Positions 46,454-57,632 of a DNA stretch of 64,000 bases are shown here, piece after piece. The DNA lies in NCBI GenBank assembly GCA_021805025.1, contig JAJZGF010000008.1:1-64000 (forward strand). The letters are read 5' to 3'. Source of the stretch: Acidobacteriota bacterium. Lineage in GTDB: Bacteria; Acidobacteriota; Terriglobia; Terriglobales; Acidobacteriaceae. Each line of letters begins with the position of its first letter. The first letter of the stretch is position 1. Under the pieces are notes generated by a model, which ran no database searches, had not been told where the DNA came from, and saw only the letters and a program-made list of their open reading frames with translations. A program made the position numbers and the translations under genes.

Positions 46454-46614
46454 GGAGATTCCCTCGAAATTCGTGCAATTCTAGGGTAATCGATGCGAGG
46501 CGGGGTCGTCCGACGCGAGTGTCAATTCTGGATGTCAATCAAGGCGCGGAGTGTATTTCGCACGACGCCAGGCGGGATTTCTCGACCAGCATCATGTGGG
46601 TGGAGAGATGCACT

Positions 46615-47571
46615 TTAAGAGGCATTCGAGATCAACCGCTCTGCGGTGCGTCGATCCGTGATGAGGACATTGATCCATTTTCCCTTGAGCGCAGCTATGA
46701 TGGCGGGGACCTTGGCATCGCCGCCGGCGATTCCGACCACGCGAGGAGCGGACTTCAGCGTGGTGAGATCGATGCCGATGACGCGCTTCATGAGAGGGGA
46801 CTGGATCTGGCGGCCTTGCTTATCAATGAACTGAAAACAAATGTCACCGACCGCGCCGGAACGACGCAACTGGCGTCTCTCTTCTACGGAGAAGATGTTT
46901 CCGCTGCTTGCGAGTAGTGAGGATGGCTCGAGCGATCCAATGCCAACCAGAGCAAGATCAAGTTTCCCAAAAAGTTTTGCGGCCTCTTCCACGGCGGCAT
47001 CTTTTACCAGTACAGCCCTGGCCTGGGCAGAGCCGACAACCCCAGGGGCCTGCAACAGGACCGGCGATGCGCCGATCAAGCCTGCCATGCGCTGCGCCAA
47101 CAGCATGGCCTGGTATTGGGTGCTGGCATTGCCCACGCCACCCAGAATCTGCACGACCTTTCCCCCGATGCCGGCGGTACTCGGATGCATGGCATCGACC
47201 ATGGAGAAAAGCGAGCGGCTCCATGATGAGATACCGAGGACCATCTCCGGTTTGATCGTTGTTTCCACATAGAAGGCGGATGCAGCGCCGAGATCGCGCA
47301 CCACGCGCTCTTCCTCGCCATCCGAGTCGATCACTACGGCTTCCTTCAATTGGAAGCGGCTTTCCAGCGCGTCTTCCAAGTCAGGGAAGAAGCCGGCAGG
47401 CGTAGCAACGCTGATGCGGACGATGTTCGCTTCCCGTGCACGTTTGAGCATACGGGATACTTTCGACTGGTGAATGTTGAGTCGTTCCGTAATCTCCTGC
47501 TGACGAATGCCCTGGTCGTAGTACATGCGCGCGACCTTGGCCATCAAGCGGATCTCGTCCAGACGTGACAT
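46615..47571 (-). CDS. SorC-family sugar-responsive transcriptional regulator
   Basis: 318 residues. The N-terminal helix-turn-helix (about 10-55) reads AKVARMYYDQGIRQQEITERL and HQSKVSRMLKRARE, typical of SorC/DeoR-like regulators. The C-terminal sugar-phosphate-binding domain resembles NagB (VLGISSWSRSLFSMVDAM, KVVQILGGVGN, LVGIGSLEPSS, VVGIAGGDAKVPAI). It is the last gene of the sugar operon, 9 bases after the isomerase-like gene, and presumably senses a phosphorylated intermediate and binds the operator array upstream of the transketolase genes. Confidence 0.9.
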   Translation of the reverse strand: MSRLDEIRLMAKVARMYYDQGIRQQEITERLNIHQSKVSRMLKRAREANIVRISVATPAGFFPDLEDALESRFQLKEAVVIDSDGEEERVVRDLGAASAFYVETTIKPEMVLGISSWSRSLFSMVDAMHPSTAGIGGKVVQILGGVGNASTQYQAMLLAQRMAGLIGASPVLLQAPGVVGSAQARAVLVKDAAVEEAAKLFGKLDLALVGIGSLEPSSLLASSGNIFSVEERRQLRRSGAVGDICFQFIDKQGRQIQSPLMKRVIGIDLTTLKSAPRVVGIAGGDAKVPAIIAALKGKWINVLITDRRTAERLISNAS

Positions 47572-47580
47572 AGAGCTAGC

Positions 47581-48996
47581 CTATCGTGAGGCGGGCACGT
47601 GGCGATACACGTCCCAACCGAGGTATTTGCCGAGGGCTTCGGAGGTCGGCGCGGCGCAGTGACTGGCGGTCATTGCGGCATGATGCTCAAAGCCATTGAG
47701 GCAGATGTACTGCATCAGCTCCTGCAACTGCGGAATCTGAACCACGGCGCGTGTGCCAAAAGTATTCAGCGCATCCTCGGTGAAGTCTCCGTCGCCGAAA
47801 TATGCGCGAATCCTGCCGGAGGCATCATCGGTGCTGACTCTGCCGAAGGTCATCGGACCTGCAGGCGTGCGACCCGCCAATGCACCGACAGTGTTTTCTT
47901 CACCCAGCATGGTGCCGAGAATGGGAGCGGTGCCGATGCGAATGTCGGGGAGGAAATCCTTGGCCCAGTTGCCGCAATGGAAGAGGACGCACTTGTCAGG
48001 TGCGCTGCCGTAGTTGTTGTTCCAGTCCACAAGCGCGCTTGGCCTGCCGCTGGCCAGTTGCAGCGCATACATGCTGACGACTCCGGCGATGTCGACTTCA
48101 CAGGCGGAAGGCATCATCTGCTCCGACATCATGCTCATCACCGTGCAAACATTCACGCCGAAGTTTTTTTGCATCGAACTCCAGCACTGGATCGCGGTCG
48201 CAGTCAATCCCAGAGAAGACATCCAATCGTCGATGACGAGGGCAAACTTTGCCATCTTGTTGAGCGACTCGATAGGAGCGGCAGAGCTGTCAGCATAGGC
48301 ACGAATCCGATCGACGCGCTGTTTGACTCCGGGGTCATTGTCGGCAATCTTGGAGGCGCTTCCAAAGATCTCTGATAGATCGATGGTGTTCACGGAGATT
48401 CCCGCGGCCTCAAGCAGCTTCTCGCTATATCGTGTCGTGTTGAAGGCATTGGGCCGCGCACCGACTGCGCCAATGCGCACGCGCCTCATGCCGCGCACCA
48501 CGCGACAGACGGCGAAGAAAGTCTTCAACTCATCCCGGAAGAGATCGGAGGACAACGACGTGGTGTGATTGCGTGTCAGGGAGAATTTATAGCCATACTG
48601 GCGCAGATTGTTGCAGACGGAGATTTTGCCGCAATAAGCATCGCGACGGCGCGCGAGCCTGAACTGGTCAAGGTCGTCGGGACATGCCTGCACAAGGATG
48701 GGTACGTTCAATTCAGAGAGGCGAATCGCATCGGCCACGCCCTTTTCATCGCCGAAATTGGGCAGGCACACGAGAATTCCGTCGATGCGCACACGATTGG
48801 TGCGGAAGAGCGTTCCGCATTTAGCGGCGTCAGACCAGGTTTCAACGGCGCCCAGTTTGGAATCGGCTTCCGACAGCCAGACCGGCTCTACGGAAAGATC
48901 TTTGAAGACGCTGATTAGATCGCGCCGCGCTTCAGAGATGAGCGCATCCGGAAAGAAATCTCGATTGCCGAGAATGACGCCGAGTGTGATGGACAT
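47581..48996 (-). CDS. L-fucose/L-arabinose isomerase-family sugar isomerase
   Basis: 471 residues. The fold and motifs (RIGAVGARPNAFNTTRYSEK, FGVNVCTVMSMMSEQ, MPSACEVDIAGVVSMYALQL, ALVDWNNNYG, LFHCGNWA) place it in the FucI/AraA superfamily of Mn-dependent aldose-ketose isomerases. The glutamate in ACEVD and the histidine in LFHCGNW resemble metal ligands of the family. It is too divergent to be FucI or AraA proper (usually 500-590). In this operon it would convert the imported aldose to a ketose for the FGGY kinase. GAGG lies 9 bases upstream; it starts 6 bases after the binding-protein gene. Confidence 0.82.
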   Translation of the reverse strand: MSITLGVILGNRDFFPDALISEARRDLISVFKDLSVEPVWLSEADSKLGAVETWSDAAKCGTLFRTNRVRIDGILVCLPNFGDEKGVADAIRLSELNVPILVQACPDDLDQFRLARRRDAYCGKISVCNNLRQYGYKFSLTRNHTTSLSSDLFRDELKTFFAVCRVVRGMRRVRIGAVGARPNAFNTTRYSEKLLEAAGISVNTIDLSEIFGSASKIADNDPGVKQRVDRIRAYADSSAAPIESLNKMAKFALVIDDWMSSLGLTATAIQCWSSMQKNFGVNVCTVMSMMSEQMMPSACEVDIAGVVSMYALQLASGRPSALVDWNNNYGSAPDKCVLFHCGNWAKDFLPDIRIGTAPILGTMLGEENTVGALAGRTPAGPMTFGRVSTDDASGRIRAYFGDGDFTEDALNTFGTRAVVQIPQLQELMQYICLNGFEHHAAMTASHCAAPTSEALGKYLGWDVYRHVPASR

Positions 48997-49002
48997 GTGG
49001 AT

Positions 49003-49956
49003 TTACCTCACCTTTTCAAAGTCTCGATAATCACTGGCATTTTGTTGTGTGACGAGATCGCAGGGAATGATCTGCCGCTCTGGTTTGCCTGTGCTGCCGG
49101 AATGGAGAAACCTATCCGCTTCATCAACAGCCATACGGGCGATGAGAACCGCGGGTTGCAGCGATGTGGCGCGCAGGGCTCCGGAGCGGATGGCCGCGAT
49201 GGCATCCGGGCTGCCGTCAAGGCCTGTGATGACCATGCCGCTCAAGGCGGAAGTCTTTACAGCAGCCGATGCGCCTAGGGCCATTGTGTCGTTGCCTGCG
49301 ATGATGCCGCGGAGATTTGCATGGGCCTGCAGCATGGTCTCTGTCTTTTGAAACGCCTCAGCCTGGGACCAATTGGCCGATTGGGCGGCCACGCGATGCA
49401 AGTTGGGTTGCAGGTCAAGAACGGCATGGAAGGCGCTGGTGCGTATCTGCGCGTTGGTATCGGATTCGCGGCCCAGCAACTCAGCGTAGTCGCCACCCTG
49501 GGAACCAATGGCGCGCGCAAACTCCTGGGCAACGATGCGTGCGCCCTGATCGTTGTCGGCGATGATCTGGGCTTTGGCAATGCCATCGGCTTCAATCTCC
49601 CGATCGATAAGAAAGCACGGAATGCCCGCCTGGGTAGCGCGGCGGACGGCTGCGATCGACGAATCTGCGCCGGCATTGTCGAGAACAATTGCCGCGGCAT
49701 TGGAGGCAATGGCAGCATCGATCAGGTTGTCCTGGCGATAGGCGTCATCCTCATGAGCATCGACGCGTACGCGATAGCCCAATGACTGAGCGCGCGCAGC
49801 GGCCGCGTCCGCTTCTGCTTTGAAGAAGGGGTTGTCTTGAGACGGCACAAGGATGACGATGAGCGGTCGCGACATTGCAGCGCGATGGCAGGCCGCAGAC
49901 GCGAGTAGCAGCAAGCAGGCTGCTGTCGCGGCCAGGATGCTCATGCGGTCTCGCAT
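49003..49956 (-). CDS. Sugar ABC transporter substrate-binding lipoprotein (RbsB-like)
   Basis: About 317 residues. MSILAATAACLLLLASAAC is a lipoprotein signal with lipobox ASAAC. Type I periplasmic-binding fold: VILVPSQDNPFFKAEADAA, VDAHEDDAYRQDNLIDAAI, AAIVLDNAGADSS, GIPCFLIDREIEADG, GIIAGNDTMALGA and VITGLDGSPDAI, as in RbsB-type pentose/hexose binders. AAGGAG lies 8 bases before the ATG, which overlaps the permease stop by one base (TGATG). Confidence 0.92.
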   Translation of the reverse strand: MRDRMSILAATAACLLLLASAACHRAAMSRPLIVILVPSQDNPFFKAEADAAAARAQSLGYRVRVDAHEDDAYRQDNLIDAAIASNAAAIVLDNAGADSSIAAVRRATQAGIPCFLIDREIEADGIAKAQIIADNDQGARIVAQEFARAIGSQGGDYAELLGRESDTNAQIRTSAFHAVLDLQPNLHRVAAQSANWSQAEAFQKTETMLQAHANLRGIIAGNDTMALGASAAVKTSALSGMVITGLDGSPDAIAAIRSGALRATSLQPAVLIARMAVDEADRFLHSGSTGKPERQIIPCDLVTQQNASDYRDFEKVR

Positions 49957-51038
49957 CACTGCGCTCCTTCTGCATCTGCGTCTTGCAGGTATGGTAGGAA
50001 TCGGGTCTGCAGCCGGGTCTGCAGTTGATCTACGGCGACGGCCAGCACGATGACTGTGCCTTTGATAATCATCTGCCAGAACTCCGAGACGCCAAGCATG
50101 ACAAGGCCATCGGAAAGTACGCCAATGACGAAGGCTCCGATGAGTGAACCGGGGATGGAACCGCGTCCACCCATGAGGGATGTACCGCCGAGAACCACTG
50201 CGGCGATGGCGTTGAGTTCGAAGCCTTCGCCGGTTGCGGGGTGAGCTGCCTCCAACTGCGAGGCGATGATCAGACCGACGATCGCAGCGCACAACGACGA
50301 TGCAAGATAGGTGAAGAGTTTTACGCGCGGCACACGTATGCCGGCAAGGCGCGCGGCTCTCTCATTACCTCCGATGGCGTAGATGTGACGGCCGAGAGGC
50401 GTCTTGACTGCAATCAACCAGGCAAGGGCAAACAGCGCAAGCATGATCCAGACCGGCAGCGAAAGTCCCATGAACGAGCTTCGACCCAGCAGGGGAAAGC
50501 CGGTATTGCCGCGCGCAGGCTGGCCTGCAAGATTTGGGAAGGTCTTTCCATCGGAGAGCAGCAGAGCTGCTCCGCGGGCAATGTAGAGGGTGCCGAGAGT
50601 AGCGATGAAGGGCGCAACACCGGCGTTTGCAACGAGCCATCCATTAAGAAGCCCCACGATGAGGCAGGCGGCAAACGCGAGGAGCATGGCTAGGAAGACG
50701 GGAGGATAGTGGAGCACGCCTGCAAGGACGATGCCCTGCGTCAGCACGTATCCCGCAACCATTCCGCCGAGGCCTGCGAGGGAGCCAACGGAAAGATCGA
50801 TGCCACCGGAAAGCACGACGAAGGTCATACCGATGGCCAGGATTGCTGAGATAGCCACATGCTTAGAGAGAATGGCGAGGTTATTGGCCGTAAAAAACGA
50901 TGGAGCGAGAGCGGAGAAGAGCACCACCAGGGCGACAAGCACGAAAACTGCGCGTGCGCGAAGGACAAACAGAAGTACCCGCACAGAGAACTTGGCCAGA
51001 CGGTGAGAGCGATGCTGTACGGCGGGGGCAGTGGTCAT
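49956..51038 (-). CDS. Sugar ABC transporter permease (RbsC-like)
   Basis: 360 residues with eight to ten hydrophobic helices. VVLSGGIDLSVGSLAGLGGMVA (in part) is the RbsC/AraH hallmark; ALAWLIAVKTPLGRHIYAIGGNERAARLAGI and AIAAVVLGGTSLMGGRGSI are the other conserved cytoplasmic loops. It forms the membrane channel with the ATPase encoded just upstream; starts overlap by 4 bases. Confidence 0.94.
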   Translation of the reverse strand: MTTAPAVQHRSHRLAKFSVRVLLFVLRARAVFVLVALVVLFSALAPSFFTANNLAILSKHVAISAILAIGMTFVVLSGGIDLSVGSLAGLGGMVAGYVLTQGIVLAGVLHYPPVFLAMLLAFAACLIVGLLNGWLVANAGVAPFIATLGTLYIARGAALLLSDGKTFPNLAGQPARGNTGFPLLGRSSFMGLSLPVWIMLALFALAWLIAVKTPLGRHIYAIGGNERAARLAGIRVPRVKLFTYLASSLCAAIVGLIIASQLEAAHPATGEGFELNAIAAVVLGGTSLMGGRGSIPGSLIGAFVIGVLSDGLVMLGVSEFWQMIIKGTVIVLAVAVDQLQTRLQTRFLPYLQDADAEGAQ

Positions 51039-52591
51039 GCGAGTGAAACTCCAGAGAGCGGCGGCCGGGTGTTGACGGTGGGACTGGCGGCGCCGAAGAG
51101 GGCCTCATCGGTGATCTCGGCGCGCGTCAACTCAGAGGCGATGCGGCCCTGGCAGAGGACCAGAACGCGGTCTGCGAGGGTACGTGTCTCTTCAATTTCA
51201 GAGGATGTGAAGAGAACGCCAATGCCCTGATCGGCGAGCCGGCGCAGGATGGAATATATCTCCGCCTTGGCGCTTACGTCCACGCCACGGGTTGGTTCGT
51301 CGAGCAAGATCAAGGCCGGGTTGCGCATCAGGCATCGTGCGATGAGAACCTTTTGCTGATTGCCGCCGGAGAGCGATGTTACGGGCAATTCCAAATCTGT
51401 AGCAACAATGTTGAGTTCCATTGCTAGTTTTCGGACACGGGCTAACTGCTGAGCGCGCGAGAGCAATACTCCCCGCATGGCGCTGATGGTGATGTTTTCA
51501 AAGATCGACATATCGGGGATAAGGCCATCCCGCTGGCGATCTTCCGGCACGAGAACGATGCCGTGCTTTCCAGCGTTGGAGACAGTGGAGAGATGAGCCT
51601 GCACGCCGTTGAGAACGACGCTTCCGGCAAGCAATCGCCGGGCGCCCGCGAGAGACTCAAGCAATTCGGTTCGACCCGCGCCGAGCAATCCGTAGATGCC
51701 AAGAATCTCTCCGCGACGCAGCGTGAAGCTCACATCGTGCAACGCGGCCTGTGCGGCCTCATCCGCGCTGGAGGCTGCAAGCGTAAATCCGCGCGCGGTG
51801 AGGAGAGGGGGCGCATGGGCGAGAGAGGGCCGATCCGCAGGCGTCTCACTTATCGTTCGGCCCGACATACTTTCCACGATCCAATGCCGGGAAACCTCGG
51901 CGCGCGGGGCGTGGCCTACGATGCGGCCGGAACGAAGAACTGTGAACCAATCGCCGAGATGGAGCAACTCGTGAAGCCGGTGGGAGATATAGATGATTGT
52001 GACGCCGGAGCATTTGAGATCCGCGATGACCTGAAAAAGGGAGTCGGTCTCAGTGGAGGAGAGCGCCGACGTGGGCTCGTCCAAGATGAGAACCCTTGCG
52101 CCCTGATCCAGAGCGCGGGCGATCTCAACGATCTGGCGGCAACCCAGCGAGAGTTGTGCTGTCTTCACGCGGACTTGCATTGGCTTGCGCAGGCTCGCAA
52201 GTGCCTTTGTGGATCGAAGGTCCTCTGCTGGGCGGTTGAGCAGGACTGCGGCCCTCACCGGCTCGCGACCGGCGAAGATGTTCTCGCTGATGTCGAGATT
52301 GGGAAGCACGGAGAGCTCCTGGTGGACGATGGATATTCCCTGTGCTGCTGCTTCACGGGGCGAGCGTAGGCGGATGGGTGTGCCTTCGAGCAGAATCTCT
52401 CCGGAGTCGGCAGTTTCCACTCCCGCAAGAATGCGCATCAGGGTTGACTTGCCGGCGCCATTCTCACCAATGAGTACGTTGACCTGGTGGCGATGCACAC
52501 GCAGGGCAACGCCGTCGAGCGCGAGTGTGCCCGGATAGCGCTTTGTGATGTCTCGCGCTTCAAGAACGATTTCATCCGCGGTTTCGCTCAT
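51035..52591 (-). CDS. Sugar ABC transporter ATP-binding protein (RbsA-like, double domain)
   Basis: 518 residues with two ATPase domains in tandem. First: Walker A GENGAGKSTLMRI, signature-like LSLGCRQIVEIARAL, Walker B VLILDEPTSAL. Second: degenerate Walker A GLLGAGRTELLESL, signature LSGGNQQKVLIARCL, LILLDEPTRGVDV. This is the RbsA/AraG/MglA carbohydrate class. It overlaps both neighbours by 4 bases. Confidence 0.95.
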   Translation of the reverse strand: MSETADEIVLEARDITKRYPGTLALDGVALRVHRHQVNVLIGENGAGKSTLMRILAGVETADSGEILLEGTPIRLRSPREAAAQGISIVHQELSVLPNLDISENIFAGREPVRAAVLLNRPAEDLRSTKALASLRKPMQVRVKTAQLSLGCRQIVEIARALDQGARVLILDEPTSALSSTETDSLFQVIADLKCSGVTIIYISHRLHELLHLGDWFTVLRSGRIVGHAPRAEVSRHWIVESMSGRTISETPADRPSLAHAPPLLTARGFTLAASSADEAAQAALHDVSFTLRRGEILGIYGLLGAGRTELLESLAGARRLLAGSVVLNGVQAHLSTVSNAGKHGIVLVPEDRQRDGLIPDMSIFENITISAMRGVLLSRAQQLARVRKLAMELNIVATDLELPVTSLSGGNQQKVLIARCLMRNPALILLDEPTRGVDVSAKAEIYSILRRLADQGIGVLFTSSEIEETRTLADRVLVLCQGRIASELTRAEITDEALFGAASPTVNTRPPLSGVSLA

Positions 52592-54081
52592 GCTTCGGCC
52601 CCAGGATGCAGGCGCGCACGCAGGACTGCGACTTTCCAGGCGCCGTAATGGCGCTTGCGATCCGGCAAATCCATGGCCGGCGTGAACTGGTCTGAAGTGC
52701 GGGGCAGAGCGGCGATCTCTGCCAGGTCATGCCACCATCCCAGTGCCAGGCCTGCTAGCCAGGACGCTCCTGTTGCCGAGAGTTCTTCATTCACGGAGCG
52801 CAAGACCGGGAGTCCGAGAATGTCTGCCTGGAACTGCATGAGTGTGCTGTTGCGTGTGGCTCCGCCGTCGGCGTGCAGCGCGGTGAAGACAGAATTGCTC
52901 GCCTCTTCCATGGCGAAGAATACATCCGCCACCTGGTAGGCAATGGCGTCGACTGCGGCGCGCGCAAGATGAGCCGATGTATGCGATCGGCCCAGGCCGG
53001 TAATCGTTCCGCGTGCCGATGCGTCCCAGTGCGGGGCGCCGAGGCCGACCATAGCAGGCACGAAGCAGACGCCATCCGCATCGGGGACCGTTTCGGCAAG
53101 GGAAGCAGCCTGCTGCGCAGGATCGGCAAAGTGAAGAAACTCGCCGACCCATTGCACCGCTGAGCCGGTCATGGCGATGTTCCCCTCAAGAGCGAATTGT
53201 GTCTTGTCTGCGATCGACCAGGCAATGGTTCGCGCCAGAACGGGTGTGTCGGCGGCCAACGACGGCGTGAGCGCCATCAGGGACGAGCCCGTACCGTAGG
53301 TTGCCTTGACCGCGCCTGGGGTGTATTGTCCATGGCCGAACATGGCAGCGTGCGAGTCGCCAATCGCGGCGAGTATGGGCACGCCTTCAAGGTCAGGGAT
53401 GCCGAAGCAAATTCCGAAAGAACCGGACGAGGAGCGCAGATCCGGCATCGCGGAAAGAGGGATGCCGAAAAGTCGGAGCAATTCGGCGTCCCATATCAGG
53501 TTCTCAAGATGGAGCAGACCGGTGCGCGATGCATTGGAGAGATCTGTGGCGTGGACCTGGCCGCCTGTGAGGCGATGAATCAACCAACTGTCCACGGTTC
53601 CAAGACGCAGCGCTTCGTCCCGTGCGAGGGAATGAGCCTGAGCGTTGTTTTCGAGCAGCCATGCCCACTTTCCAGCACTCATAAGAGTCGCCAGGGGAAG
53701 GCCTGTCTTCGCGCGTATCGCCTCGGTGTGCGCAAGCATTCGCCGGCAAATCTCCGCTGAGCGCGCGCATTGCCAACTGATGGCATGCGCAACGGGAGCG
53801 CCGGTGCGCGCATTCCATGCTGTCGCGGTCTCGCGTTGATTAGAGATTGCGAGCGCATCAATGGAGCGCGCACACTGCGCGGCATACCGAGTGGACTCAG
53901 CAATCACGGCGAGCACTGAATCCCACAATTGAGCAGGATCTTGTTCCACATGGCCGAGCGCGGAGTGAATCAAGGCAACGGGCGCGGATGCGCGAAAGAC
54001 GGGCGCTCCTGAGCGGTCTACCAGAAGGGCCTTGGTGTTCGTCGTACCCTGATCGATGGCCAGGATCAATCCGGAAGGCAT
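52588..54081 (-). CDS. FGGY-family carbohydrate kinase
   Basis: 497 residues. The ATPase fold opens AIDQGTTNTKALLVD (phosphate 1), SNQRETATAWN follows, and GDSHAAMFGHG carries the catalytic aspartate region; ALHADGGATRNSTLMQFQAD is the adenosine/phosphate 2 block. It resembles glycerol kinase and xylulokinase most, but with its isomerase and split transketolase neighbours a ketopentose, such as D-apulose, is the more likely substrate. It abuts the transketolase C-half gene directly and overlaps the ATPase gene by 4 bases. Confidence 0.9.
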   Translation of the reverse strand: MPSGLILAIDQGTTNTKALLVDRSGAPVFRASAPVALIHSALGHVEQDPAQLWDSVLAVIAESTRYAAQCARSIDALAISNQRETATAWNARTGAPVAHAISWQCARSAEICRRMLAHTEAIRAKTGLPLATLMSAGKWAWLLENNAQAHSLARDEALRLGTVDSWLIHRLTGGQVHATDLSNASRTGLLHLENLIWDAELLRLFGIPLSAMPDLRSSSGSFGICFGIPDLEGVPILAAIGDSHAAMFGHGQYTPGAVKATYGTGSSLMALTPSLAADTPVLARTIAWSIADKTQFALEGNIAMTGSAVQWVGEFLHFADPAQQAASLAETVPDADGVCFVPAMVGLGAPHWDASARGTITGLGRSHTSAHLARAAVDAIAYQVADVFFAMEEASNSVFTALHADGGATRNSTLMQFQADILGLPVLRSVNEELSATGASWLAGLALGWWHDLAEIAALPRTSDQFTPAMDLPDRKRHYGAWKVAVLRARLHPGAEA

Positions 54082-55062
54082 TTACGGCTTCTCCCCCAAC
54101 AGGTCAAGAGCTGCATTGTGGATTCCCCGCGCGGTGAGTCCGAAGTGCTCAAGAAGAAATTCTGCGGAGCCTGTGGGAGCAAAGACTCCCGGCACGCCCA
54201 GGATGCGCATGGGCGCAGGATGATGGACGGCCAGAATCTCAGCCACGGCGCCGCCCAGCCCTCCGGCAGCAAGCGCTTCTTCTGCTGTGACGATGCCGCG
54301 CGTGGTGCTCGCCGCGTCGAGCACGGCGTCCACGTCCATTGGACTCATGCTGCTCATGTTCAGCACGCGGGCGTGAATTCCAATTTGATCCAGGGTATCT
54401 GCCGCGTCTAGCGCGCGCGAGACCATGACGCCGTTGGCCATGAGAGTTATGTCGTTGCCCGCGCGCAGAGTGCTGGCCTTGCCTAGCGTGAACTGAAAGC
54501 CCTGCTGATGCACGGCCCGCACCGGCATGCGGCTGATGCGCAGAAACATGGGGCCGATATGTTGGAGAGAATAGTGCATGGCTGCGGCGGTCTCAAGCGG
54601 ATCCGCGGGAACAACGACGGAGAGATTGGGAATGATGCGCGTCCAGGCGAGGTCTTCAATGGAGTGATGGGTGGGGCCGAGCTCTCCATAGGCCATGCCG
54701 GAGGACATGCCGCACAACCGCACATTCAATTTCGAGTAACCCAGATCCACTTTGATCTGTTCCATGGCGCGTGCGGTGAGAAAGCAGGAAGCAGCGCAGA
54801 CGTAGGGAACCATACCACTGGCGGCAAGCCCCGCGCCGACGCCCACCAGATTCTGCTCGGCGATGCCCACGTTGACAAAGCGCTCGGGAAACTTCTGGCT
54901 GAAAGACTTGAGCTTGGTGGAGGAGACGGAGTCGCTGACCAGGGCGCACACGCGCGGGTCCGCTGCAGCCATGGATTCAAGCGCCTGAGAGTAGGCATCG
55001 CGGCAATCGTAGAGTGTTGCGGTTGCAGGACTGGTTGCTGGAACTGTCAATGGTGTACTCAC
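54082..55062 (-). CDS. Transketolase, C-terminal subunit (split enzyme)
   Basis: 326 residues covering the pyrimidine-binding (PYR) and C-terminal domains of transketolase. FVNVGIAEQNLVGVGAG contains the glutamate that activates thiamine diphosphate. GMSSGMAYGELGPTHHSIEDLAWTRIIPN (in part) and ISRMPVRAVH follow, and a C-terminal transketolase_C domain begins near 200. It pairs with the N-terminal subunit whose gene overlaps its start by 4 bases. Split transketolases with this gene context include the apulose-4-phosphate transketolase subunits AptA/AptB. Confidence 0.92.
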   Translation of the reverse strand: MSTPLTVPATSPATATLYDCRDAYSQALESMAAADPRVCALVSDSVSSTKLKSFSQKFPERFVNVGIAEQNLVGVGAGLAASGMVPYVCAASCFLTARAMEQIKVDLGYSKLNVRLCGMSSGMAYGELGPTHHSIEDLAWTRIIPNLSVVVPADPLETAAAMHYSLQHIGPMFLRISRMPVRAVHQQGFQFTLGKASTLRAGNDITLMANGVMVSRALDAADTLDQIGIHARVLNMSSMSPMDVDAVLDAASTTRGIVTAEEALAAGGLGGAVAEILAVHHPAPMRILGVPGVFAPTGSAEFLLEHFGLTARGIHNAALDLLGEKP

Positions 55063-55928
55063 TGCGAGACCTCCACGCCGAGTTCAAGGGCGGCCAGAGC
55101 GAGATGCTCCTGGGTGGGCACACCGTGATGCCACGCGGGCTTGTTCTCAGCAAAGGAAACACCTTTGCCCTTGATTGTGTTTGCGATGATGCATGATGGC
55201 TTTCCCTTTTCAAGAGGGAGGCTTGCGAAAGTGCGCAGCATCGTGGCGTGATCATGACCGTCCACTTCAGTAACCGCGAAGCCGAAGGCAGCCCATTTGG
55301 GAGCCAGAGGGTCCATGCGGATGATCTTCTCCGTGAAGTCTCCCTGCTGGATACGATTGCGATCGACGATCACGATGAGGTTATCGAGTCCATATTGCTG
55401 CGCGGTCAGGGCCGCCTCCCAGTTGGAGCCTTCCTGCAATTCGCCATCGCCCGTCAGGACAAAGGTACGCCAGGCTTCTCCGCGCATGCGTGCGGCAAGA
55501 GCGCAGCCGACACCAATCGGCAACCCGTGACCAAGCGGACCGGTGTTGGCTTCTACTCCGGGCAGTTTATTGCGGTCGGGATGGCCGTTGAGCATTGAGA
55601 GCGGGTCCATGAAGGTTCCGAGCATGGCTGGCGGAAAGAAGCCTTTGAACGCAAGGGTGGAATAGAAAGCGCCGGAGCAATGGCCCTTGCTCATGATGAA
55701 GCGATCACGCTGGGGCCATGCGGGCTGAGCCGGATTCACGTTCAGGATTCCGCCAAGATACAGCGTCGCAAGAATATCGGCAGAGGAGAGATCTCCGCCC
55801 GTGTGGCCCAGGCCTGAGTGGTTTGTCATGGTCATCGCGCTGAACCGGATCTGATTGGCAGACTGGCGGAGATTCGGCACCAGTCCTGATCCGGCAATCC
55901 CGGATTCGCGGGGTGTAGAGTCGATCAT
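55059..55928 (-). CDS. Transketolase, N-terminal thiamine-diphosphate-binding subunit
   Basis: About 289 residues, the pyrophosphate-binding (PP) domain. GLGHTGGDLSSADILATLY, MSKGHCSGAFYSTLA, PLGHGLPIGVGCALAARM, then the metal-binding GDGELQEGSNWEA and IVIVDRNRIQQGD are family blocks. The ATG at 55928 has AGGAG 5 bases upstream and is preferred to an ATG at 55943, leaving the ATGCA operator repeats just upstream. It is the first gene of the sugar operon. Confidence 0.92.
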   Translation of the reverse strand: MIDSTPRESGIAGSGLVPNLRQSANQIRFSAMTMTNHSGLGHTGGDLSSADILATLYLGGILNVNPAQPAWPQRDRFIMSKGHCSGAFYSTLAFKGFFPPAMLGTFMDPLSMLNGHPDRNKLPGVEANTGPLGHGLPIGVGCALAARMRGEAWRTFVLTGDGELQEGSNWEAALTAQQYGLDNLIVIVDRNRIQQGDFTEKIIRMDPLAPKWAAFGFAVTEVDGHDHATMLRTFASLPLEKGKPSCIIANTIKGKGVSFAENKPAWHHGVPTQEHLALAALELGVEVSQ

Positions 55929-55941
55929 CGTCGCTCCTGAC

Positions 55942-55980
55942 ATGCATCACGAAAGTATGCATATTTATGCAAACATGCAT
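55942..55980. promoter_or_regulatory. Operator array of ATGCA repeats between divergent sugar genes
   Basis: ATGCAT occurs at 55942-55947, 55957-55962 and 55975-55980, with ATGCAA at 55967-55972. Two of them form the 14-bp palindrome TGCATA-TT-TATGCA at 55958-55971. Such clustering within 39 bases, directly before the first gene of the operon, suggests binding of a multimeric regulator, most simply the SorC-family protein of this operon. It may also control the divergent DUF1593 gene. Confidence 0.6.
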
Positions 55981-56087
55981 GATGTTGTAATCTCACTATC
56001 GATGATCCCTTTGCGGCTGTCAACTACTATTGCGTACGCAGAGCCAGGGCGAGGCAGGGAATCAACGAATGCGTGTGGAGGAGATCG

Positions 56088-57632
56088 ATGCGGATGGATG
56101 AACTCATGCAGAGCGGTTTGCGGGCGTGGATCATGCTGGTGGTCGGATTGTGTTTTGGCGCAGCGGCGGCAGCTCAGGCCGCGCTTCCCCCGGCGGCTGA
56201 CAGTTTTACCGGGCACCCGCGAGTGGCGATCATCAGCGACATCGGGAACGAGCCCGACGATCAGATGTCGTTTGTGCGCCTGCTGCTCTACTCGAACGAA
56301 CTCGACCTTGAGGCCATGATTGCCTCGACATCGACCTGGCAGAGGACCGCCACACATCCCGAGACGATGCACGCCATTGTTCAGGCCTATGGCCAGGTGC
56401 GGCCCAACCTGCAGTTGCATGCCAAGGGCTGGCCCACCGCCGAAGAACTGGATCAGCGCATCTTTGCGGGCCAGCCTGCTTACGGCATGGCCGCTACCGG
56501 AGAGGGTAAAGCGTCTGCCGGCTCGCAGGCGTTGATGAAGGCGATGGAACGCGACGATCCGCGCCCGCTGTGGATCTGCCTCTGGGGCGGCGTCAACACG
56601 CTGGCGCAGGCGCTGATCGATTTGCGCGCCGGGCATTCGCCGGCGGAGATGGAGCGGCTGGTATCTCATTTGCGAGTCTCTTCGATCTCGGATCAGGATG
56701 ACGCCGGGCCATGGATTCGCCGCGAGTTTCCCGCGCTGTTTTATGTGGTCAAGCCCAGTCCGCCGAACGGAGAGGAGTACTATTACGCGACCTGGACGGG
56801 TATCAGCGGTGATCTCTTCTACCGCAACGGCGCGGGAGCCGATACAAGCCTGGTGACCAATGAGTGGCTTGAGACGCATATTCGCGCCAAGGGCCCGATG
56901 GGCAAGTGGTATCCGAAGTTTCTCTTCATCATGGAAGGCGATACTCCGTCGTATCTTGGCCTGATCGACAATGGTTTGAATGCTTATCGGAGGCCGGACT
57001 GGGGTGGCTGGGGCGGGCGCTATGTCTATCGACAGCCCTACGGCGAACCCCATGCTATCTGGACGCAGGGCGGCGACGAATTTACGCGTGCAACCTCACA
57101 GGATCGCGTGGTCGGCATTGACGGCGTGAAGCATGTTTCAGATCAGGCGACGATCTGGCGCTGGCGCGAGGCTTACCAGAATGACTTTGCCGCGCGCATG
57201 GACTGGACGATCAAGGACTTTGCGCACGCCAACCACAATCCCGAACTGGTGGTGAATGGACAAGGGGGGACTGCTCCCGTCGAGTTCACCGTTGCGGCAA
57301 AGCAGACGGTGACGCTGGACGCGACAGGGAGCAAGGACCCCGATGGGCAGGCGCTGCACTACAAGTGGTGGGTTTACGAAGAGGCGGGCCTTGCGGGTAG
57401 TCACGGCGCCGATGTGGCCATTACGGCCGCCAATAGTCCCAAGGCCCAGGTGACAATCCACTCCCCGTGTCGCGACGCGTGGATTCCCGGCTTGATTCCT
57501 TGCAGAGGGGAGGGGGTTGCACACATCATTCTGGAAGTGACCGATGAGGGAGCACCGCGGCTCACGTCGTATCGGCGCATCGTGCTGCACGTGCAGGCAC
57601 CGCCGGCGGCTACGGCTGCAACTGGAAAGTAG
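56088..57632 (+). CDS. Secreted DUF1593 protein with nucleoside-hydrolase-like N-domain
   Basis: About 514 residues. A signal peptide (IMLVVGLCFGAAAAAQA) is followed by a nucleoside-hydrolase-like domain (about 35-320): VAIISDIGNEPDDQMSFVRLLLYS parallels the metal-binding Asp motif of that fold, LWICLWGGVNTLAQAL and SISDQDDAGPWI are further conserved blocks. The C-terminal part (about 375-505) is a PKD/Ig-like sandwich (VTLDATGSKDPDGQALHYKWW). This matches DUF1593/Sde182-type proteins from polysaccharide degraders, whose activity is not established to my knowledge. GGAGG lies 6 bases before the ATG at 56088. Divergent from the sugar operon with a shared control region. Confidence 0.85.
   Translation: MRMDELMQSGLRAWIMLVVGLCFGAAAAAQAALPPAADSFTGHPRVAIISDIGNEPDDQMSFVRLLLYSNELDLEAMIASTSTWQRTATHPETMHAIVQAYGQVRPNLQLHAKGWPTAEELDQRIFAGQPAYGMAATGEGKASAGSQALMKAMERDDPRPLWICLWGGVNTLAQALIDLRAGHSPAEMERLVSHLRVSSISDQDDAGPWIRREFPALFYVVKPSPPNGEEYYYATWTGISGDLFYRNGAGADTSLVTNEWLETHIRAKGPMGKWYPKFLFIMEGDTPSYLGLIDNGLNAYRRPDWGGWGGRYVYRQPYGEPHAIWTQGGDEFTRATSQDRVVGIDGVKHVSDQATIWRWREAYQNDFAARMDWTIKDFAHANHNPELVVNGQGGTAPVEFTVAAKQTVTLDATGSKDPDGQALHYKWWVYEEAGLAGSHGADVAITAANSPKAQVTIHSPCRDAWIPGLIPCRGEGVAHIILEVTDEGAPRLTSYRRIVLHVQAPPAATAATGK

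Follow-up and report, generated by a model that had tools for sequence, protein, structure and literature searches.

What does a secreted protein of the DUF1593 family do when its gene lies back to back with a sugar operon? The question is raised by a gene at 56088 to 57632 of the stretch of Acidobacteriota DNA analyzed here, which is 64,000 nucleotides long and is called the window throughout. An earlier reading, made from the sequence only, proposed that the protein may cleave a pentofuranosyl linkage, such as an apiofuranoside, and so feed the adjacent importer. Our results partly support that interpretation. The connection with apiose is strongly supported, and cleavage of a pentofuranosyl bond is what the protein's features would suggest.

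The open reading frame (ORF) runs uninterrupted on the plus strand from an ATG at 56088, which is preceded by a ribosome site, GGAGGAG, at 56077 to 56083, and encodes 514 residues. The family assignment holds: PF07632 (Sde182_NH-like, formerly DUF1593) matched residues 45 to 312 over its whole profile (1-268 of 268) with 347.3 bits against a gathering score of 26.8, and the Asp motif pointed out earlier, SDIGNEPDD, occupies residues 50 to 58. The domain occurs once in the window's own genome assembly. As had been proposed, the N-terminus looks by eye like a Sec signal peptide, with a hydrophobic stretch that ends in AAAAAQA. At the other end of the protein, PF21027 (Sde0182_C) matched residues 407 to 502 with 86 bits. 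The sequence-only reading had placed a PKD/Ig-like domain here; the predicted fold agrees (it matched PKD domains, 4aqo, with Z 9.6 over 86 residues), but the Pfam PKD model reached only 23.5 bits, below its cut-off of 27. In Pfam searches of the protein there was no match to the nucleoside hydrolase family PF01156 at E 0.001 and none to the apiosidase-like catalytic domain PF13204. Among solved structures its sole clear relative is 2YHG (phmmer E 1e-82). The features of the gene are as follows.

56088-57632, plus strand: secreted DUF1593/Sde182_NH-like protein of 514 aa (ORF, ribosome site, PF07632, PF21027, relative of 2YHG)
56088-56180, plus strand: signal-peptide-like N-terminus, residues 1 to about 31 (judged by eye on the translated sequence)
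56220-57023, plus strand: nucleoside-hydrolase-like domain, residues 45-312 (PF07632; fold match to 1yoe, Z 16.9)
56235-56261, plus strand: SDIGNEPDD motif, residues 50-58, with invariant D51, D57, and D58 (alignments A1 and A4)
56934-56948, plus strand: EGDTP motif, residues 283-287, with invariant D285 (alignments A1 and A4)
57306-57593, plus strand: C-terminal Sde0182_C/PKD-like domain, residues 407-502 (PF21027; fold match to 4aqo, Z 9.6)

The divergent sugar operon described earlier is real and consists of eight minus-strand genes at 46615 to 55943. The distance between the two start codons, previously given as about 160 bases, is 144 (55944 to 56087). The operon and its control region contain the following.

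46615-47571, minus strand: SorC-type sugar-binding regulator, which may bind the palindrome below (PF04198; 39% identity with its counterpart in the E. coli apiose cluster)
47581-48996, minus strand: fucose-isomerase-type enzyme, probable aldose (apiose) isomerase replacing ApsI (PF02952; role suggested by its place)
49003-49962, minus strand: ABC sugar-binding protein, start approximate (PF13407; 37% identity with its E. coli cluster counterpart)
49956-51038, minus strand: sugar ABC transporter permease (Pfam, NCBIfam)
51035-52591, minus strand: sugar ABC transporter ATPase (Pfam, NCBIfam)
52588-54081, minus strand: FGGY kinase, AplK-like (45% to E. coli SE15 AplK; NCBIfam score pattern)
54082-55062, minus strand: transketolase C-terminal subunit, AptB-like, TkC (39% to E. 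coli SE15 AptB)
55059-55943, minus strand: transketolase N-terminal subunit, AptA-like, TkN (48% to E. coli SE15 AptA)
55958-55971, no strand assigned: palindrome TGCATATTTATGCA, candidate operator in the 144-base divergent region (pattern search; conservation before TkN)
55995-56023, minus strand: sigma-70-like promoter match ahead of the operon, TTGACA-17-GATAGT (10 of 12 positions, a consensus match only)

Counterparts of AptA, AptB, and AplK of E. coli SE15 are all present in the operon (48%, 39%, and 45% identity). AptA has TkN as its only match in the window's own genome, and the window kinase is the best match of AplK there; the glycerol kinase model of NCBIfam gave 495 bits for E. coli AplK and 501 for the window kinase, both below its cut-off of 590. 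By homology, the window operon is of the apiose (apt) type, and its match to the E. coli D-apiose cluster is new in this analysis. Like the apt cluster of the E. coli SE15/Pectobacterium type, the window has AptA, AptB, AplK, a SorC-type regulator, and a ribose-type ABC importer; unlike that cluster, it has a fucose-isomerase-type enzyme and an adjoining DUF1593 gene. There is no DUF1593 gene among the seven SE15 genes examined, which lie between 574795 and 582988 and cover part of the cluster.

Pfam found no PF01261 protein (the xylose-isomerase-like ApsI) among the eight operon genes; a Fucose_iso_C protein is there instead. The Escherichia version of the cluster, as described in PMC13001218, is also without apsI, and the same source reports that cluster-bearing strains of E. 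coli and E. fergusonii grow on D-apiose while K-12 does not (SE15, which supplied that study's query sequences, is outside the strains tested for growth there). Candidates for ApsI do occur elsewhere, namely, a PF01261 protein adjoining AptA and AptB in Pantoea and a 50% relative of it in a Rhodothermia cluster. The fucose-isomerase-type enzyme of the window probably performs the apiose isomerase step as a non-homologous replacement of ApsI. Relatives of this enzyme with about 50 to 54% identity are common in the order.

The region between the DUF1593 gene and the operon contains TGCATAaatATGCA at 55958 to 55971, which is the sole match to the palindrome in the 64 kb when up to two mismatches are allowed (0.26 expected by chance). 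Because 21 of 100 shuffled windows also hold such a match, the presence of the palindrome in the window is by itself weak evidence; the evidence is its conservation. A palindrome matching at 12 or more of its 14 positions precedes TkN in 18 of 26 operons versus 0.2% of 1006 control windows of equal length. Before DUF1593 genes, such a site was found at 10 of the 16 copies that operon genomes contain (the other six have no site of 12 or more) and at none of 21 in operon-free genomes, a difference with a P value of 2e-5 if kinship is ignored. These 21 are the operon-free genes with a placeable start, excluding the fragment L055 and the C-terminal-only L062; two of them score 11. The site is also found at DUF1593 copies that are unlinked to the operon in operon genomes, four of nine having it (P = 0.005, kinship ignored). 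These four are the copies of G039 and G171 (subtype b), the C13 copy of G116, and that of G020. In G039 the operon lies 1.08 Mb from DUF1593 on one contig; the G020 copy may still be linked to its operon, since it sits at the end of a contig.

A strict 12-base core of the palindrome gave 38 sites in the 29 operon genomes versus 7 for a reversed control. Eleven of the 38 precede nine DUF1593 genes, six of which share the region with the operon; the other three (G039, G020, and G171) were not seen adjoining it. Further sites lie before outer-membrane beta-barrel receptors and, in G020, before a DUF5060/PF13204 apiosidase-like protein. The window's own genome has only one other strict site, at C242:721, and a receptor ORF starts about 600 bases further on. 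Folding of the intergenic strand showed nothing unusual (z = -0.47).

Two observations on other sites are recorded here. The stretch with the second palindrome of the window's own genome (L207, contig C242) is 99.8% identical over 5.2 kb to L210 (G128 C89), despite the assignment of the two genomes to different genera, which reflects either recent transfer or cross-binning of the assemblies. In two genomes of one genus, the palindrome lies near the start of an ORF (L211, G170 C260; L213, G043 C31) whose sequence resembles that of adenosylhomocysteinase.

The sequence-only reading had looked to co-occurrence with the operon in other genomes, and this is what we found. An operon was counted when its isomerase had at least 71% identity, which was the case in 29 of 397 genomes. 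In a sample of 150 genomes of the order, a protein search detected DUF1593 in 30; with Pfam, 31 genomes scored above the cut-off, one of them through a 23-position fragment. DUF1593 is carried by 9 of 13 operon genomes versus 22 of 137 operon-free genomes (P = 9e-5, kinship ignored). Against this, 22 of the 31 DUF1593 genomes of this sample are without the operon, and 15 of the 29 operon genomes are without DUF1593. DUF1593 adjoins the operon in 7 of the 25 loci with TkN in view, the window included, and is not adjacent in the other 18 (L073, L086, L087, and L092, with no TkN in the fetched stretch, are excluded). It is divergent from TkN in the window, L068, L093, L094, and L095, is co-directional and the first gene ahead of TkN in L076, and lies at the regulator end of the operon in L071. 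In L074, L075, and L079, TkN has a neighbor from one similarity cluster, whose L075 member has DUF5060 and PF13204. Recurring neighbors of other operon copies belong to GH95, GH78, GH29, and, below the cut-off, GH79 (one representative of each scanned), and these families fit the pectin RG-II. When the surroundings of unlinked DUF1593 genes in the order were compared, no cluster of neighbors recurred at most loci; the most widespread of the unassigned clusters, which resembles receptors, occurs in 10 of the clustered loci. In the sister genome G131 (L032), the segment equivalent to window positions 46517 to 56020 (about 9.5 kb, the operon and the palindrome) is lost and the DUF1593 gene is kept, with 96% identity. 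The remnants there are a 94-base part of the regulator gene, inverted, and a 38-base piece.

Beyond the order, we examined the best 80 DUF1593 loci from named genomes, and seven had an AptA homologue in the fetched stretch. Three of these (L106, L116, and L127) are gene sets already counted as G371, G028, and G330; four are new. In L125 (Acidobacteria), the ORFs of DUF1593 and the isomerase overlap by 4 bases. L163 (Pantoea) has a regulator, AptA (77% to E. coli), AptB, an ApsI-like protein, and DUF1593; a DUF5060/DUF5605 protein and an MFS transporter lie nearby. L164 (Rhodothermia) has two DUF1593 genes, an ApsI-like gene, and then a partial AptA gene, all in one direction. In L180 (Draconibacterium), AptA, AptB, and an importer are followed by three DUF1593 genes with GH88 between them. 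Outside the seven, L151 has pieces of a regulator and a binding protein, and L174 has an importer only. Multiple DUF1593 genes of different subtypes lie close together in L180 (5647 to 12760), L132, L174, and L178, and among such clustered genes there is a shorter one with the motif STDIGGTDPDDFQS.

For a genome-wide AptA search, 38 genomes were chosen from the best 80 loci, at a point when four of them were already known to have AptA; all eight Enterobacterales of those loci were included. The eight Enterobacterales with a window-like DUF1593 all have AptA (77 to 92%), against a base rate of 12 in 295 Enterobacterales genomes. Strong PF07632 matches occurred in four of these 295, three of them without AptA and with copies 33 to 42% identical to the window protein; three further genomes had weak matches (31 to 36 bits), and two of the three have AptA. 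In the same 38-genome search, 8 of 11 Sphingomonadales genomes gave no AptA match, and the Sphingomonadales DUF1593 neighbors that were checked include GH30 and GH3.

We placed the association on a DUF1593 tree of 93 rows, 17 of them labeled apt (among these the L151 remnant and four copies labeled by the palindrome alone); the tree omits 18 loci that were fragments or repeats within one genome, as well as segments shorter than 380 residues. The label requires 14 changes, at least 12 of them forced by starred branches. Because 58 of 500 shuffles gave values as low, the label is hardly clustered on the tree, and thus the association comes and goes in the family.

The apt-type operon, the recurrence of DUF1593 at apt clusters of several phyla, and the palindrome at four of the nine unlinked copies therefore give strong support to the apiose part of the sequence-only reading. 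Membership of the protein in an apiose regulon is well supported, and we are confident that it is part of apiose utilization in its lineage. Since it is apparently switched together with the genes for using apiose, a rare sugar of plant cell walls, it probably helps to free this sugar. Given the wide occurrence of PF07632 outside operon genomes, the family may there serve other furanosides, or apiose via other pathways. From this follows the question of whether the window protein is itself a general furanosidase of pectin or hemicellulose, acting, for example, on arabinofuranosides or another furanoside, that has been recruited to the apiose regulon in some lineages. The many copies in operon-free genomes (22 of 137) would fit, as would the neighbors elsewhere, which include GH30, GH3, rhamnosidases, GH42, GH51-type proteins, pectate lyase, and GH88. 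We consider this reading rather unlikely, since the palindrome and the linkage to apt genes turn up in separate lineages and are not confined to one subtype.

The preferred reading, an apiose-regulon protein that acts on apiosides, also makes demands on the fold, and structure prediction had been suggested as a check. The top structural match of the AlphaFold2 model (mean pLDDT 75, pTM 0.78) is 2YHG (Z 39.9, 397 residues, 41%). It is followed by 25 entries of the nucleoside-hydrolase fold at Z 15.4 to 16.9 (rows 2 to 26), led by 1yoe, E. coli YbeK with ribose (Z 16.9, rmsd 3.2, 231 residues). The predicted model of the window protein has the nucleoside-hydrolase fold. D51, D57, D58, and D285 are conserved without exception in the 22 aligned rows, which cover three subtypes. 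Nucleoside hydrolases have a D...DD motif and a further conserved Asp. The D-x-x-x-D-D spacing of the Rih proteins is found in subtype b (L061, L060, and L215) and in one Draconibacterium copy; the window-type motif has two extra residues between the first D and the DD, and MAFFT pairs D51 with the subtype-b aspartate. D51, D58, and D285 would be the counterparts of the classical metal ligands of nucleoside hydrolases. A profile-profile comparison of DUF1593 alignments A1, A3, and A4 with E. coli RihA, RihB, and RihC gave no significant match (the Rih alignment was thin, and a viral scan for relatives to deepen it yielded none), so the residue equivalences rest on motif spacing. The loss of metal ligands, which was named earlier as evidence against a furanosidase, is not what we see: aspartates resembling the ligands, equated on that spacing, are conserved.

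The predicted fold is thus like those of the nucleoside hydrolase YbeK/RihA (1yoe) and the effector XOO4466 (4kl0), with Z 16.9 and 15.9, and the D...DD motif with another conserved Asp is shared with nucleoside hydrolases. Unlike them, the window protein has neither PF01156 nor a significant profile match, has two added residues in the motif, and is predicted to be exported with an added C-terminal domain. Its closest solved relative, 2YHG, is Sde_0182 of Saccharophagus degradans, a member of the same Pfam family with three additional carbohydrate-binding domains (PMC8910321), none of which Pfam finds in the window protein. Sde_0182 is reported to retain Ca2+ and to be inactive on purine and pyrimidine nucleosides with ribofuranose binding kept, and it has been suggested that it may be a furanose-interacting module (PMC8910321). 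A second source reads the structure as suggesting a catalytic domain for furanose sugars, with no activity demonstrated in its account (PMC5294722, where the domain is printed as DUF159). The core furanosidase idea is consequently not new, because the furanose hypothesis and the structure are already in these publications; the passages describing Sde_0182 in the two sources make no mention of apiose.

Another protein family is a second candidate for apioside cleavage. The apiosidase-like proteins with PF13204 (GH140, the class to which BT1012 belongs) have the same proposed role and adjoin TkN in other operons, as DUF1593 does here, but their sequences are unrelated to the window protein. BT1012 is a beta-apiosidase (PMC7939467). 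A DUF5060/apiosidase-like protein is present in 22 of the 29 operon genomes: 6 genomes have DUF1593 only, 8 have both, 14 have the DUF5060/apiosidase-like protein only, and 1 has neither. (One of the eight is the window's own genome, where the protein is a fragment at a contig edge.) The protein occurs in 14 of 15 genomes without DUF1593 versus 8 of 14 with it (P = 0.035), which is suggestive of mutual exclusion. DUF5060-type proteins (with PF13204 and/or DUF5605 where scanned) lie beside the apt operons of L074, L075, L079, L081, and L163; one is under the same palindrome in L208, and one adjoins DUF1593 in L153.

These counts bear on whether the window protein might bind furanoses without catalysis, capturing or presenting apiosides that a DUF5060/PF13204 hydrolase or another enzyme cuts. 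The frequency of DUF5060/apiosidase-like proteins in operon genomes agrees with that, as does the behavior of Sde_0182, which is reported to bind ribofuranose yet not to act on nucleosides (PMC8910321). We think it distinctly improbable, because 6 of the 14 DUF1593 genomes among the 29 had no DUF5060 relative in our search and because the acidic site is invariant, though binding alone could conserve an acidic site too. The predicted fold by itself would allow a riboside scavenger, a secreted hydrolase of nucleosides or ADP-ribose, but this is scarcely credible for a relative of a protein reported inactive on purine and pyrimidine nucleosides (PMC8910321), with no match to PF01156 and beside an operon that is of the apt type and not for ribose or purine. 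We put last, as very unlikely, a chance neighbor with no part in using the operon's sugar: DUF1593 does remain in G131 after operon loss and is unlinked in 18 of 25 operon copies, but it takes operon-internal positions in other phyla and shares the palindrome at linked and unlinked copies alike.

Our preferred reading remains that of an exported member of a D-apiose regulon that hydrolyzes beta-D-apiofuranosyl units, with import of the freed apiose, and we lean moderately towards it. Computation gives the predicted fold, the conserved aspartates, the operon homology, the linkage, and the shared palindrome; the steps proposed below build on these. The SorC-type regulator would act at the palindrome in the 144-base divergent region, and the importer, isomerase, kinase, transketolase, and secreted DUF1593 protein would be switched together. 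Outside the cytoplasm, D51, D57, D58, and D285 would surround a metal in the nucleoside-hydrolase-like domain. In nucleoside hydrolases, the metal holds the cis-2,3-diol of ribofuranose, and beta-D-apiofuranose, like ribofuranose, has a cis-2,3-diol adjoining the anomeric carbon; in RG-II this is the diol bridged by borate. On a beta-D-apiofuranosyl unit of pectin (RG-II) or of plant apiosides, the domain probably grips this cis-2,3-diol. The apiose of RG-II is beta-1,2 linked to galacturonic acid and bears rhamnose (PMC7939467). The beta-D-apiofuranosyl bond would be hydrolyzed, and the free apiose would then be imported and converted by the operon enzymes to apulose, apulose-4-phosphate, and onward, the fucose-isomerase-type enzyme supplying the putative apiose activity. 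Because apiofuranose shares the diol held by the nucleoside-hydrolase metal, we somewhat favor hydrolysis of apiosides by the window protein over binding only.

PF07632 is a secreted family of several phyla with a structure since 2011 and, in the literature that we examined, no demonstrated activity; we found no link of DUF1593 to apiose in the open-licence papers searched, with subscription papers mostly outside that scope. The shared operator-like site, the linkage across phyla, and the operon's homology to an apiose cluster confirmed by experiment narrow "some furanose" to one testable sugar. A wider reading, to which we give an even chance, is that DUF1593 is a new family of metal-dependent, exported O-glycoside hydrolases (apiofuranosidases) on the nucleoside-hydrolase fold that recognize the cis-2,3-diol of apiose, regulated with an apiose operon in which a fucose-isomerase-type enzyme has taken over from ApsI; its subtypes, sometimes in tandem, would then serve different apiosyl linkages. 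We know of no protein of the nucleoside-hydrolase fold that acts on cell-wall sugars. If the reading is true, this protein would be the first, and its fold would be a second one for releasing apiose from plant pectin.
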